NCBI GenBank assembly: GCA_011620585.1
Contig: WOYV01000025.1
Location: 1-64,000, forward strand
Direction: 5' to 3'
Length of the DNA: 64,000 bases
DNA from: Draconibacterium sp.
Lineage (GTDB): Bacteria > Bacteroidota > Bacteroidia > Bacteroidales > Prolixibacteraceae
Numbering within the stretch: position 1 is the stretch's first letter; the number at the start of each line of letters is the position of its first letter. The translations under genes were made by a program, and so were the position numbers. Under the pieces are notes generated by a model. That model was not told where the DNA came from. It was given only the letters and a program-made list of their open reading frames with translations, and did no database searches. Shown one piece after another: positions 47-5,556 of the stretch.

Positions 47-3000
47 CTATTTATATTCATCCCAGCTTTTCACTTTAATATCTTCCATTTTGTATTTACA
101 AATACCGTAAAGGAAAGCACTGGCCACCCGGGCATTTGTGATTAGCGGAATATTGTAGTCGATGGCACTTCGGCGAATATTATATCCGTTTTTCAACTCA
201 CGGTTGGTGTGGTTCTTCGGAATATTGATCACCAAATCGATCTTTTTTTGTTTGATCATGTCGATTGTGTTCGGCGATTGTCCTTCTTCATCCGGCCAAT
301 AGATCAAGGTATTTTCAATACCATTATCGCGGAAGAATTTATGGGTTCCTTCGGTAGCATAAATAGTGAAATTTCGTTCCACCAGCATTCGCGCACTGTT
401 TAGTAGCTCGAGTTTGCCACGCGACGGTCCCGATGAAATCAGAATATTCTTTTTGGGGAAGTTATATCCCACCGAGAGCATTGCTTTCAGAATGGCTTCG
501 TAATATGATTCTCCGATACAACCTACTTCTCCGGTCGACGACATGTCGACACCGAGTACAGGATCGGCATTTAATAACCGCGCAAACGAAAATTGCGGCG
601 CTTTTACACCCACGTAGTCTAGTTCGAACAACGATTTATCAGGTTTCGGAACATCGATCCCGAGCATTACTTTAGTGGCGATCTCGATCAGGTTCAGTTT
701 CATCACCTTCGAAACAAAGGGGAAGCTTCGCGAGGCGCGCAGGTTGCATTCGATAACTTTAATATCATTGTCTTTGGCCAGGAATTGCATATTGAATGGA
801 CCTGTAATTTCGAGTCCCTGTGCAATTTCGCGGGCAATTCTTTTAATTCGGCGAATGGTTTCGACATACAGTTTCTGTGGGGGGAAAACGATGGTTGCAT
901 CGCCCGAGTGCACCCCTGCAAATTCAACGTGTTCCGAGATGGCATAAGCAATCATCTCACCTTTATTGGCCACTGCATCAATCTCGATCTCTTTTGCATT
1001 TTCGATGAACTCGGTAACAACCACCGGGTGTTCTTTCGAAACATTAGCAGCCATCACGAGGAAGTGCTCCAACTGATCGGGGTTCGACACCACGTTCATG
1101 GCGGCTCCCGAGAGGACATACGAGGGGCGGATCAAAACAGGGTAACCCACTTCATCAACAAATTTGTGAATTTCTTCAATAGTTGAAAGACGCGCCCAGC
1201 GTGGTTGGTCAACTTTTAAGGTATCGAGCAGGGAAGAGAATTTTTCACGGTCTTCGGCGTTATCAATCTTAATTGGAGAGGTGCCTAGTACCGGAACATT
1301 CTGGCTGTGCAGTTTCATAGCCAGGTTATTCGGTATTTGTCCACCCATCGAAACCACCACTCCAAACGGATCTTCAAGATCGATAATATCCATCACACGT
1401 TCGAAACTCAGCTCGTCGAAATACAAGCGGTCGCAGGTATCGTAATCTGTACTCACCGTTTCAGGATTGTAGTTGATCATGATCGAGCGGTACTTTTCTT
1501 GTTTAATGGTTTCGATCGCGTTAACACTACACCAGTCGAATTCAACCGAACTACCAATCCGGTATGCCCCCGAACCCAACACAATCACCGAACGATCATC
1601 GTGGAAAAACCCGATATCATGTTCCGTACCGCTGTATGTCAGGTACAGGTAATTGGTTTGTGCAGGATATTCACCTGCGAGCGTATCAATTTGTTTTACT
1701 GCGGGCAGAATGCCGTTGGCTTTTCGGTAATCGCGTACCCGCAGCAGATCGGTGGTAATGCTTTTATTTGGGCTGTTGAGCGCAAGCCGTGCAATCTGAA
1801 AATCGGAGAACCCGGCTTTTTTCGCTGCTTTTAAAAGCGGAACAGGCAGGTTTTCAAGTTCTTTTATTTCCTGTAGTTCAAGACTTATTTTGTAAATATT
1901 ATTTAGTTTCTGTAAGAACCAGCGGTCGATCTTTGTTTTATCGTGAATTTCATCGATCGAATATCCTTTATTGAAGGCTTCTGCAATCGCAAAAATCCTT
2001 CGATCGGTCGGGTTGGTCAGTTCTTCTTCAATCGCAGCAATGTTAATTTCTTCGCGGTTGGCTACAAATCCGTGCATCCCGAGTCCAACCATTCTTATTC
2101 CTTTCTGAATGGCTTCCTCGAAAGTTCTGCCAATGGCCATAATTTCGCCGACCGATTTCATCGAGCTGCCAATATTTTTTGAAACCCCCACAAATTTGCT
2201 CAAATCCCAGCGGGGAATTTTCACCACACAGTAATCGAGTGCCGGTTCAAAAGCGGCGGTAGTAACTTTGGTTACCGAGTTTTTAAGCTGGTGCAAGCCA
2301 TAACCCAAGCCGAGTTTGGCAGCCACAAAAGCCAGCGGATATCCGGTTGCTTTCGAAGCCAGTGCCGAAGAACGCGATAAACGGGCATTCACCTCGATCA
2401 CACGGTAGTCTTCCGAATACGGGTCAAGTGCAAACTGTACGTTACATTCGCCCACCACACCAACGCGGCGGATAATTTTTATCGAAATGGCACGTAGTTT
2501 ATGATATTCAGAGTTTGACAAAGTTTGCGAAGGAGCTACCACGATACTCTCGCCGGTGTGAATACCGAGCGGGTCGAAGTTTTCCATGTTACACACTGTA
2601 ATACAGTTGTCGTAGCGGTCGCGAACCACTTCGTATTCCACTTCTTTCCAGCCTTTAATCGATTCTTCAACCAAAATTTGCGGCGAATACGAGAAAGCGC
2701 TTCCGGCAAGTTTTTCGAGTTCTTCTTCATTTTCACAAAAGCCCGAACCCAACCCTCCCAAGGTATAAGCGGCCCGGATAATAATCGGGAACCCAACAAT
2801 TTTAGCGGCTGCCATTGCTTCCTCCATAGTTGAGGCGGCAATGCTTTTTGGAGTTTTAATATCAATTTCGCCCAACATTTTCGCGAAAATATCGCGGTCT
2901 TCGGTATCGATAATCGATTGAACCGGGGTACCTACCACTTCAACATTGTACTTTTCGAGCACCCCGCTTTTAAATAGCGCTACACCACAGTTCAGCGCAG

Positions 3001-3277
3001 TTTGACCCCCAAATGCCAGTAATATCCCCTGGGGTTTTTCCTTTTTGATCACTTCCTCAACAAAGTAAGGAGTAACCGGCAGGAAGTAAATTTTGTCGGC
3101 TATGTTTTCCGAGGTTTGAATGGTAGCAATATTCGGGTTGATCAAAACCGTTTCAACACCTTCTTCTTTTAATGCTTTTAATGCCTGCGAACCCGAGTAG
3201 TCAAATTCTCCGGCTTCCCCAATTTTAAGGGCGCCTGAACCAAGTACGATCGCTTTTTTAATATGAGTATGTATCAT
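47..3277 (-). CDS. carB: Carbamoyl-phosphate synthase large subunit
   Basis: Makes carbamoyl phosphate from bicarbonate, two ATP and ammonia supplied by CarA, for arginine and pyrimidine synthesis. The 1076-residue length is normal for the family. The N-terminus shows LGSGALKIGEAGEFDYSG and the second half repeats it as LGSGAYRIGSSVEFDW, so both homologous carboxyphosphate and carbamate ATP-grasp halves are present. Roughly residues 130-330 and 670-870 are the ATP-grasp cores, 400-540 the oligomerisation region, and about 940-1076 the MGS-like allosteric domain (starts near ISSGPSRGKLELL). It reads leftward from carA but is separated from it by a four-helix-bundle gene. Complete, with no broken motif seen. 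Confidence 0.97.
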   Translation of the reverse strand: MIHTHIKKAIVLGSGALKIGEAGEFDYSGSQALKALKEEGVETVLINPNIATIQTSENIADKIYFLPVTPYFVEEVIKKEKPQGILLAFGGQTALNCGVALFKSGVLEKYNVEVVGTPVQSIIDTEDRDIFAKMLGEIDIKTPKSIAASTMEEAMAAAKIVGFPIIIRAAYTLGGLGSGFCENEEELEKLAGSAFSYSPQILVEESIKGWKEVEYEVVRDRYDNCITVCNMENFDPLGIHTGESIVVAPSQTLSNSEYHKLRAISIKIIRRVGVVGECNVQFALDPYSEDYRVIEVNARLSRSSALASKATGYPLAFVAAKLGLGYGLHQLKNSVTKVTTAAFEPALDYCVVKIPRWDLSKFVGVSKNIGSSMKSVGEIMAIGRTFEEAIQKGIRMVGLGMHGFVANREEINIAAIEEELTNPTDRRIFAIAEAFNKGYSIDEIHDKTKIDRWFLQKLNNIYKISLELQEIKELENLPVPLLKAAKKAGFSDFQIARLALNSPNKSITTDLLRVRDYRKANGILPAVKQIDTLAGEYPAQTNYLYLTYSGTEHDIGFFHDDRSVIVLGSGAYRIGSSVEFDWCSVNAIETIKQEKYRSIMINYNPETVSTDYDTCDRLYFDELSFERVMDIIDLEDPFGVVVSMGGQIPNNLAMKLHSQNVPVLGTSPIKIDNAEDREKFSSLLDTLKVDQPRWARLSTIEEIHKFVDEVGYPVLIRPSYVLSGAAMNVVSNPDQLEHFLVMAANVSKEHPVVVTEFIENAKEIEIDAVANKGEMIAYAISEHVEFAGVHSGDATIVFPPQKLYVETIRRIKRIAREIAQGLEITGPFNMQFLAKDNDIKVIECNLRASRSFPFVSKVMKLNLIEIATKVMLGIDVPKPDKSLFELDYVGVKAPQFSFARLLNADPVLGVDMSSTGEVGCIGESYYEAILKAMLSVGYNFPKKNILISSGPSRGKLELLNSARMLVERNFTIYATEGTHKFFRDNGIENTLIYWPDEEGQSPNTIDMIKQKKIDLVINIPKNHTNRELKNGYNIRRSAIDYNIPLITNARVASAFLYGICKYKMEDIKVKSWDEYK

Positions 3278-3775: not shown

Positions 3776-4858
3776 TTATTTTTTCTTATATTCTGCAACG
3801 CTGTTCATAAAATCATCAAACAAAAATTCAGTATCGGTTGGTCCGCTCGATGCTTCAGGGTGAAACTGTGTCGAAAAGAAGGGTTTCGTTTTGTGCCGGA
3901 TTCCTTCGTTGGTGTTGTCGTTTACATTGGTAAACAGCGGTTCCCAATCTTCAGGTAAGGTTTCGGTAGCCACTGCAAAACCGTGGTTTTGCGAGGTGAT
4001 GTAACACTTGTTGGTGCCTTCGAGCAAAACCGGCTGATTGTGGCTGCGGTGTCCGTATTTCAGTTTGTAGGTATCGCCACCTGCAGCGCGCGCGAGCAGT
4101 TGGTTCCCAAGGCAAATTCCCATGATCGGCTTTTCTTCACCAATCACACTTTTTATATGGCCGACGGTTGCCGAACACATGGCCGGGTCGCCGGGGCCGT
4201 TCGAGATAAATACCCCATCGTAATCTTCCTTTGTGAAATCGTAATCCCAGGGCACACGAATTACAGTGGCATTTCTGTCGAGCAGGCAGCGGATGATATT
4301 GTTTTTTACTCCGCAGTCGATCAAAACAACTTTGTATTTTCCATCGCCATATTCTTCGCGAGTGGTGCAACTGGCAATGGCTACTAAATTCTCCTGGTTT
4401 GGGTCGTAAAATTCAATTTCTTCATCGAATTCAATTTTTCCAAGCATCGATCCTTTCTCGCGTAAAATTTTTGTTAAGGCTCGTGTGTCTATGTCAAAAA
4501 GGCCCGGAACTTCGTATTCTTTTAACCAGTCCGACAAACTTTTTTCGGCATTCCAATGGCTGAACTCAAACGAATAATCCGAGACGATCAAGCCGGTGAT
4601 GTGCAGTTTATACGACTCGAAAAATTTGTGGATCCCATTTTCCTGCCGATTTACCGGAACCCCGTAATTCCCGATCATCGGGTAGGTTGAAACCAGTATC
4701 TGTCCGGTGTACGAAGGGTCGGTCAAACTCTCCGGATAGCCGGTCATAGCAGTGTAAAATACCACTTCGCCTGCTACCGATTTCTCGCTTCCAAACGATT
4801 TTCCCGTAAAAACGGTTCCGTCTTCCAATGTTAATTTGGCCTGTCTTACTTTATACAT
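3776..4858 (-). CDS. carA: Carbamoyl-phosphate synthase small (glutaminase) subunit
   Basis: Hydrolyses glutamine and channels ammonia to CarB. 360 residues, the usual size. An N-terminal CarA domain (about 1-150) is followed by a class I glutamine amidotransferase domain: oxyanion motif SNGPGDP near 219-225, nucleophile Cys249 in GICLGNQL, and His333 and Glu335 in QFHPEAS. It starts with ATG at 4858, 18 bases downstream of the T-run of a strong terminator-like hairpin (4881-4911), which suggests control by transcription attenuation. It is divergent from argR and leads into the four-helix-bundle gene and carB. Confidence 0.97.
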   Translation of the reverse strand: MYKVRQAKLTLEDGTVFTGKSFGSEKSVAGEVVFYTAMTGYPESLTDPSYTGQILVSTYPMIGNYGVPVNRQENGIHKFFESYKLHITGLIVSDYSFEFSHWNAEKSLSDWLKEYEVPGLFDIDTRALTKILREKGSMLGKIEFDEEIEFYDPNQENLVAIASCTTREEYGDGKYKVVLIDCGVKNNIIRCLLDRNATVIRVPWDYDFTKEDYDGVFISNGPGDPAMCSATVGHIKSVIGEEKPIMGICLGNQLLARAAGGDTYKLKYGHRSHNQPVLLEGTNKCYITSQNHGFAVATETLPEDWEPLFTNVNDNTNEGIRHKTKPFFSTQFHPEASSGPTDTEFLFDDFMNSVAEYKKK

Positions 4859-4875
4859 ATTCCGGTATTATATTT

Positions 4876-4911
4876 AAAAAAAATGCGTTTGCCTTAAATA
4901 CAAACGCATTT
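4876..4911 (-). terminator. Intrinsic-terminator hairpin in the carA leader (candidate attenuator)
   Basis: On the minus strand a perfect 11-bp stem AAATGCGTTTG / CAAACGCATTT with a 9-nt loop (4892-4900) runs into an uninterrupted T-tract (4876-4880 beyond the stem). It lies between the candidate carA promoter (-7 box at 4994-5001) and the carA start at 4858. No gene upstream on this strand needs terminating, so an attenuator role is the simplest reading. Structure is seen; regulation is inferred. Confidence 0.75.
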
Positions 4912-4953
4912 CAGTTCTTCTGTAATTATATCCACACAAGTAATCTTTCGCAT
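4894..4953 (-). CDS. Possible 19-residue leader peptide ahead of carA
   Basis: An ATG at 4953 opens a 19-codon frame (begins MRKITCVD, ends KCVCI) that stops with TAA inside the loop of the terminator hairpin at 4881-4911. A ribosome reaching that stop would sit on the 5' arm of the terminator and could prevent it forming. The codons show no run of Arg or other amino acid typical of classical attenuators; they hold three Cys and one Arg. The coding status is unproven, and the frame could be chance. Confidence 0.3.
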   Translation of the reverse strand: MRKITCVDIITEELKCVCI

Positions 4954-4993
4954 TGATTAAGATCGCAACATTAAGTTAGAATCAATATCGATG

Positions 4994-5001
4994 CAAAAAT
5001 A
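4994..5001 (-). promoter_or_regulatory. Candidate carA promoter -7 box
   Basis: TATTTTTG on the minus strand matches the Bacteroidota -7 consensus TAnnTTTG. A clear TTG -33 element at the expected distance is not seen. Transcription from here would give a leader of about 130 nt that contains the attenuator-like hairpin. Confidence 0.45.
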
Positions 5002-5022: not shown

Positions 5023-5052
5023 TTTGATTTTTCATCAAAATGAATAAATTTG
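5023..5052 (+). promoter_or_regulatory. argR promoter
   Basis: A TTTG -33 element at 5023-5026 lies 18 bp ahead of TAAATTTG at 5045-5052, a full match to the Bacteroidota -7 consensus. Transcription would start near 5058-5060, leaving a leader of under 20 nt before the ATG at 5077. Confidence 0.6.
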
Positions 5053-5075
5053 CACAAAAAATGTATAAATATACA
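5041..5075 (+). promoter_or_regulatory. Two ARG-box-like operators over the argR promoter
   Basis: TGAATAAATTTGCA (5041-5054) and TGTATAAATATACA (5062-5075) resemble the ArgR operator pattern TGAATwwwwATTCA. The second has perfect 6-bp arms around AA. Their centres are 21 bp apart, the spacing of tandem ARG boxes in characterised ArgR operators. They cover the -7 box and the predicted start of transcription, which fits autorepression. They also lie upstream of the divergent carA promoter. Confidence 0.6.
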
Positions 5076-5076
5076 A

Positions 5077-5556
5077 ATGAAGAATAAAGTACAACGACTG
5101 CTCGAAATCAGGAAAATAATTCAGCAGGGGCAGGTTCACAGCCAGGATGAATTATTGTCCACCCTAAAAGAGAAGGGTTATGAGCTGACTCAGGCTACCT
5201 TGTCGCGCGACTTAAAAGTGTTACAGGTGGCAAAAGTACCACATCCTTCAAAAGGATATGTTTATACGGTTCCGGAAACTGTTCGGGAAACGGGAGTGGC
5301 CGAACAAAGCAGGGTAAATTATCTGGCCGACGGTTTTCAGGACATCCAGTTTTCGGGGAACCTGGCAGTAGTGAAAACGCTTCCGGGTTACGCCAACAGT
5401 ATTGCAGCAGTTATCGACCAGGCAAAAAGCTGGGAAATTATAGGAACAGTTGCAGGCGACGACACCATACTGATTATTGAGAGAGAGGGGATTTCTAAAA
5501 ACGATTTGATGCAGGCATTAAAACGAATTATGCCAAAATTGAATGAAAGATTTTAA
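5077..5556 (+). CDS. argR: Arginine repressor ArgR
   Basis: Arginine-responsive DNA-binding regulator, 159 residues from the ATG at 5077. An upstream in-frame TTG at 5050 is rejected because it lies in the -7 box. The N-terminal winged helix (about 1-70) carries the recognition helix TQATLSRDL. The C-terminal hexamerisation/arginine-binding domain carries LPGYANSIAAVID and the GTVAGDDTI loop, whose adjacent aspartates contact arginine in known ArgR structures. It is the first gene of a rightward arginine/proline/histidine gene series and is divergent from carAB. Operator-like sites overlap its own promoter. Confidence 0.95.
   Translation: MKNKVQRLLEIRKIIQQGQVHSQDELLSTLKEKGYELTQATLSRDLKVLQVAKVPHPSKGYVYTVPETVRETGVAEQSRVNYLADGFQDIQFSGNLAVVKTLPGYANSIAAVIDQAKSWEIIGTVAGDDTILIIEREGISKNDLMQALKRIMPKLNERF

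Follow-up and report, generated by a model that had tools for sequence, protein, structure and literature searches.

A conserved terminator in the carA leader of Prolixibacteraceae as a candidate translation-gated attenuator

Does the hairpin directly upstream of carA in Draconibacterium sp. decide whether carAB is transcribed, and which signal would it read? Escherichia coli controls carAB through ArgR, PepA, PurR, RutR and UTP-dependent reiterative transcription. The accessible part of a review on this operon places the control at initiation and states that neither P2 nor any of the arginine genes involves attenuation (PMC6245113). Our literature survey, covering mainly papers outside subscription and some of them as excerpts, yielded no description of a carA, carB or pyrB attenuator in Bacteroidota. 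Excerpts of a flavobacterial transcriptome and of a Bacteroides thetaiotaomicron map report leader-peptide clues before amino-acid operons (PMC9723704) and short frames in long leaders (PMC7366714), respectively.

The carA leader of Draconibacterium sp.

The window, a stretch of 64,000 nucleotides (assembly GCA_011620585.1, contig WOYV01000025.1), carries carA, the presumably regulated gene for the small subunit of carbamoyl phosphate synthase (3776..4858, minus strand; Pfam PF00988, PF00117), and downstream of it carB for the large subunit (47..3277, minus strand; PF02786, PF25596, PF02787). A gene for a 23S rRNA intervening-sequence-type protein (PF05635, 3304-3720) is located between the two on the same strand. 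The gene argR is divergent from carA, and the leader elements occupy the argR-carA intergenic stretch. The -7 element of the carA promoter, TATTTTTG (4994..5001, minus strand), was read directly and matches TAnnTTTG, the motif named as promoter consensus of Bacteroidota in the available text of PMC9723704. From the positions of promoter and terminator, a leader RNA would begin about 5 nt past TTTG and, if terminated, end at the U tract (4876..4988, minus strand); TATTTTTG and the first conserved stem base are separated by 84 nt.

Direct reading confirmed the original prediction of a perfect 11-bp stem and a U tract aimed at carA (4911-4876, minus strand). The arms AAATGCGTTTG (4911-4901) and CAAACGCATTT (4891-4881) form 11 perfect pairs around a 9-base loop, and this stem-loop (4881..4911, minus strand) was also supported by folding and covariation. 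It is followed by a T8 tract (4876..4883, minus strand), the first three bases of which are also paired in the stem. The distance to carA, previously given as 18 bases, measured 17 nt from the U tract to the ATG at 4858. A leader frame of 19 codons, MRKITCVDIITEELKCVCI (4894..4953, minus strand), starts with ATG at 4953 and stops with TAA at 4894 inside the terminator loop, just as had been proposed. The second AATGCG (4949-4954), which had been considered as alternative pairing partner, is present and constitutes the start of this frame; the pairing role was rejected, as a further ATGCG between promoter and stem occurred in only 2 of 107 leaders.

The leader folded with -27.4 kcal/mol, compared to -18.9 +- 3.0 for shuffled sequences, only 1 of 200 shuffles being as low. 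The 3.9 Mb genome contains a single copy of the exact stem repeat with a loop of 3-10 nt (listed for both strands, since it is palindromic), so that a generic repeat was rejected. Defining strong terminators by a stem of 8 or more and a T-run of 6 or more, 16 were found in the window with its 52 approximate genes, and only the one in the carA leader aims at a gene start within 120 nt. An Rfam scan of the window gave no cis-regulatory match at gathering score, only a tRNA elsewhere in the window.

Conservation of the terminator and its position

Among 140 genomes from 23 genera of the family, carA was present in 127, in two of them cut by contig ends. The stem ATGCG..CGCAT with T8 was found upstream of carA in all 125 assessable genomes, comprising 109 upstream regions that were read and 16 covariance-model matches that were placed by coordinates. 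Of the regions read, 108 were recognized by a TGCG pattern in the 5' arm, and one (G527, with a stem starting ACGC) was placed by hand. In the genus, carA was detected in 35 of 37 genomes at E 1e-100 or better (the window genome and 34 of 36 relatives), and in all 35 the covariance model, trained on 25 distinct sequences, matched immediately 5' of carA; as the model was partly trained on these sequences, matches were to be expected, but not their position beside carA.

The spacing towards the gene was measured from the end of the U tract to the base that corresponds to residue 1 of CarA in the alignment. Of the 109 regions, 84 have a spacing of 14-27 nt, 19 one of 35-53 nt and 6 one of 164-246 nt. 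On the other side, TAnnTTTG was present upstream of the stem in 107 of 109 leaders, the remaining two being truncated, at a distance of 45-107 nt in 106 leaders and of 192 nt in one. Among the 67 dissimilar leaders with 180 nt of upstream sequence, every one had TAnnTTTG 40-115 nt before the stem, while 100 shuffles gave a mean of 5.0 and a maximum of 12. In these leaders the terminator sits between promoter element and carA.

The outer stem ATGCG..CGCAT is nearly invariant, and the next pairs and the inner stem vary in concert. Pairs 1-8 were paired at 95-100% across 83 distinct hairpins. Two-sided changes affected 5 of 12 stem pairs, a value matched by 14 of 500 shuffles, and the number of further pair types was matched by 75 of 500; these two of the five covariation measures are the less striking ones. 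None of the 500 shuffles attained the observed covariation score or the observed fraction of paired cells. All these measures have to be read knowing that related sequences can produce such a signal without structure. A candidate premature terminator, as foreseen for the carA leader, is conserved across the family, and its stem shows compensatory changes.

Beyond the family, few carA genes have this stem. The first two CarA searches yielded 94 matching loci, 55 with and 39 without the stem. In 18 further families of the order, no leader terminator could be called at carA, except for three loci (L240, L241, L245) with an unrelated terminator through which a reading frame runs. Scanning 393 genomes of the order with the model gave 22 matches at E 0.01 or better, of which 4 preceded carA and 3 carB. 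Of the remaining 15, 14 were read (all except L142); these were mostly terminators after an A-rich stretch, with no car gene by tblastn, and were set aside.

Leader frames at carA and similar devices at carB and pyrB

For the frame test, leaders were scored for a frame with at least 8 codons before the stem that stays open to within 14 nt of the stem or beyond. Leaving out two truncated leaders and the one of 192 nt, 106 of the 109 leaders qualified, and 68 of these were less than 85% alike. ATG or GTG frames reached the stem in 64 of the 68 leaders (200 shuffles: 34.6 +- 4.1, maximum 48), which extends the leader frame running onto the terminator, as originally predicted, to the family. Restricted to ATG, the count was 41 of 68 (shuffles 27.8, maximum 39); with TTG starts allowed as well, it was 68 of 68 (shuffles 46.5, maximum 56), so that a TTG start was required in 4 leaders. 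The stops of the ATG/GTG frames were located between 14 nt 5' of the stem and the end of the U tract in 57 of 68 leaders (shuffles 25.5, maximum 38). Within this range their place is not fixed: by eye, some stops lie in the loop, others within the 5' arm or immediately ahead of the stem, and a conserved stop codon in the loop, as originally expected, did not hold up. A leader start at the AUG of AUGCG inside the stem was tried and dropped, because by eye the resulting frames have no common end point.

Judged by eye, the leader sequence from promoter to stem changes rapidly between genomes. In four small groups of carA leaders (4-7 sequences each), the pN/pS of the frame was 0.98, 1.60, 0.74 and 0.70, and the pyrB leader frame had a value of 0.79 (20 of 26 pyrB leaders). 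In group g207 the value of 0.70 was the lowest of the three frames (others 0.91 and 1.47), and some selection on this peptide is possible; in group g223 the leader frame was below one other frame, and in the remaining three groups it was not lower. Of the five groups (one of pyrB and four of carA), four gave no clear indication by pN/pS of selection on the peptide, and amino-acid conservation was abandoned as proof of coding in favour of the open frame. NCBIfam and Pfam searches with six leader peptides gave nothing convincing, one peptide having two Pfam matches and one NCBIfam match below cut-off. Since the peptides are little conserved while the frames stay open, translation as such seems more important than the leader peptide.

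Several leaders have features of their own. In L206, L207 and L209 two leader frames overlap by ATGA 5' of the carA terminator, as seen by eye, which suggests coupled re-initiation. In short-leader genera (L153-L159, L165-L177, L193-L196) a GTG is visible by eye 4-5 nt after TTTG; this codon may start the carA leader frame, which would be almost leaderless. An upstream CGC able to pair with GCG of the stem is present in 24 of 24 leaders from four short-leader genera, which were chosen after the pattern was noticed, and in 4 of 82 elsewhere. The leader in the window has no such CGC within 30 nt before the stem.

Stems of the carA type were also found in front of carB. In 10 of 19 genomes, from five other families, such a stem precedes a carB copy (f61, 5/5; f105, 3/3; f60, 1/5; f56, 1/4; f69, 0/2), the genomes being a non-random choice, picked for matches, for two carB copies or for comparison. 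The first carB copies fetched had no such stem, and of the 30 places examined out of 33, 20 lacked it in the 260 nt upstream. Each of the ten carB leaders contains a frame of 26-43 codons, whose end falls anywhere from 1 nt ahead of the stem to 20 nt inside it. In 8 of 10, five or more consecutive T precede the stem, a count taken without shuffle comparison.

The pyrB leaders of the genus present a similar arrangement. Among 30 loci, our script detected a terminator together with a leader frame in 26: in 25 a frame of 63-108 codons passes through the terminator stem, among them that of the window genome's own pyrB (L310, G000:C17; 108 codons), and in one (L301) a frame of 42 codons ends at the first base of the stem. 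Three further loci (L299, L320, L323) have a terminator visible by eye. The last one (L315) belongs to a genus member of 2.2 Mb (G024) that has neither a carA match nor a terminator before pyrB. All 26 leader frames are stop-free before the stem, and the other two frames hold 100 and 115 stops; as the frames were selected for reaching the stem, independent support comes from their uniform start at 4-7 nt past TTTG. Across the order, 119 genomes were searched for pyrB and 110 had a match; in the best-scoring 30 of these, a terminator was located 8-112 nt upstream in 16, and six loci have an upstream frame whose end lies 4-12 nt ahead of the terminator. E. coli rph-pyrE, an intercistronic attenuator, resembles these six loci in lay-out, but gene and neighbours differ. 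The frames of the six loci (L332, L333, L335, L339, L340 and L350, from six families) have similar C-termini, and in L355 a frame resembling the end of carB stops 8 nt before the pyrB terminator. A kinship of the pyrB leader peptides with E. coli PyrL was rejected at rank 61 of 942 against shuffles.

Mechanism and signal

In E. coli pyrL-pyrBI, according to portions of two papers, translation coupled across the leader prevents the terminator (PMC5021804, PMC4824070). With a script similar to ours, the start of the E. coli pyrL frame was placed 87 nt ahead of the stem and its end 20 nt beyond the U tract. The leaders described here share with this system a frame that reaches or passes an intrinsic terminator just before a gene of the pyrimidine pathway, and the pyrB leaders of the genus share the lay-out including the frame reading through the stem. 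The differences are that the device is on carA or carB, that the frame normally stops within the stem or shortly ahead of it and not beyond, that carA leaders lack an enrichment of U-runs and that the pyrB leader peptides have no similarity to PyrL. Bacteroidota, unlike E. coli, do not use Shine-Dalgarno initiation, as stated in an excerpt of PMC10931766. According to the available part of PMC4824070, the leader gene of amino-acid attenuators of the Trp type is separated from the terminator by more than 20 bp, in contrast to the 57 of 68 carA leaders with stops between the last 14 nt before the stem and the end of the U tract. As in E. coli carAB, arginine and pyrimidine arms meet on one operon, here with an ARG-box-like pair beside argR. 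The PyrR-type pyr attenuators of Bacillus also have a terminator in pyr leaders. PyrR is an RNA-binding attenuation protein in the consulted section of PMC2965389. The 37 genus genomes were searched with NF003549 (PRK05205), which we take to be PyrR. No match above cut-off was obtained in any of them, 33 had weaker matches, and 6 of 14 controls were above cut-off.

We consider it probable that the carA terminator is a translation-gated transcription attenuator of the carA-carB transcript, similar to pyrL-pyrBI, with pyrimidine supply as the most likely signal. The sequences supply the promoter, the conserved and covarying terminator, the frames open to the stem and the similar devices at carB and pyrB; termination itself, the coupling and UTP as signal are what we infer. 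RNA polymerase would start at the TAnnTTTG promoter and produce a leader of about 110 nt, and a ribosome would initiate on the short leader frame. A ribosome close behind the polymerase would stand on the 5' arm and keep the stem open, so that carAB is transcribed; such masking would fit the leader frames, which extend into the loop or the 5' arm or stop within a few bases of the stem. With a lagging ribosome the stem would close over the U tract and transcription would halt before carA. Low UTP would slow the polymerase and allow the ribosome to catch up. The gap between TAnnTTTG and the stem is only 45-59 nt in 25 of 107 leaders, which leaves little room for catching up and was counted against this explanation.

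Pyrimidine supply, sensed as UTP, is probably the controlling signal of the carA device, because pyrB and carB carry similar leader-frame terminators. The U-runs expected of a pause region were no more frequent at carA than in shuffled sequences: a T-run of 6 or more occurred in 3 of 68 leaders, with 4.2 in shuffles. The pyrB leaders had such a run in 19 of 26 (shuffles 14.9, maximum 21). The carA device would resemble pyrBI in its presumed working and may belong to this kind; given the missing U-run enrichment, it may also respond to translation in general or rely on a different kind of pause. Arginine, the other signal that had been suggested, is a poor candidate, because 13 of 64 carA leaders lack an Arg codon ahead of the stem and because the ARG-box-like pair overlaps the promoter of argR; only the pyrimidine part of this suggestion is in line with the devices at carB and pyrB. 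One or more Arg codons were present in 51 of 64 leaders, a count without shuffle control. The ARG-box-like pair itself (5039-5077, 18+3+18 bp, recognized by eye) covers TAAATTTG (5045-5052) of the argR promoter; the spacing of 3 bp is that described for E. coli carAB P2 in a partial text of PMC6245113.

A gate of the same construction that lacks pyrimidine specificity and reports ribosome supply or translation rate, with carAB made only when translation is brisk, is an unlikely but serious competitor. It would account for frames that reach the stem in carA leaders lacking U-run enrichment and for the scarcity of conserved peptides; the similar devices at carB and pyrB speak against it, as does the restriction of a strong terminator just upstream to carA among the genes of the window. 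Somewhat less credit is due to an RNA switch bound by a ligand or a protein, in which the near-invariant AUGCG of the 5' arm would be a site of binding or alternative pairing and the frame would be secondary. Stem pairs 3 and 4 (G-C and C-G) are invariant in the 83 hairpins although the frame through them differs, and the post hoc upstream CGC of the short-leader genera fits such a switch. The window leader without this CGC, the Rfam scan, the PyrR search and the fast drift between promoter and stem point away from it.

A classical arginine attenuator, in which a ribosome stalling at Arg codons selects antiterminator or terminator, would suit the location of carA next to argR and other arginine genes and the Arg codons in most leaders; with these codons inconstant and with frames that extend onto the terminator and do not stop more than 20 bp ahead of it, it is very improbable. 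As partners for a competing antiterminator, two candidates were examined, the second ATGCG (2 of 107 leaders) and the upstream CGC of the short-leader genera. The same low rank is assigned to a hairpin without regulatory function, be it a plain 3'-end terminator or an mRNA-stabilising structure: argR, the upstream gene, is divergent in the window, a promoter element lies 5' of the stem, and in 23 genera the hairpin keeps its place close to promoter and carA.

The preferred reading of a translation-gated attenuator may be extended, as a tentative proposal, to the order: carA, carB and pyrB of Bacteroidales would carry ribosome-gated terminators of several origins with unrelated stems, the coupling itself would be the pyrimidine sensor, and the short-leader genera would add an RNA switch of GCG and upstream CGC.

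If true, Bacteroidota would possess a control circuit for pyrimidines that needs no repressor or RNA-binding protein. The leaders would be a natural reporter of ribosomes closely trailing RNA polymerase in this phylum; an excerpt of PMC10931766 describes such coupling for E. coli and reports that it is functionally absent in B. subtilis. One regulatory solution would then have been reached via unrelated leader peptides and stems.
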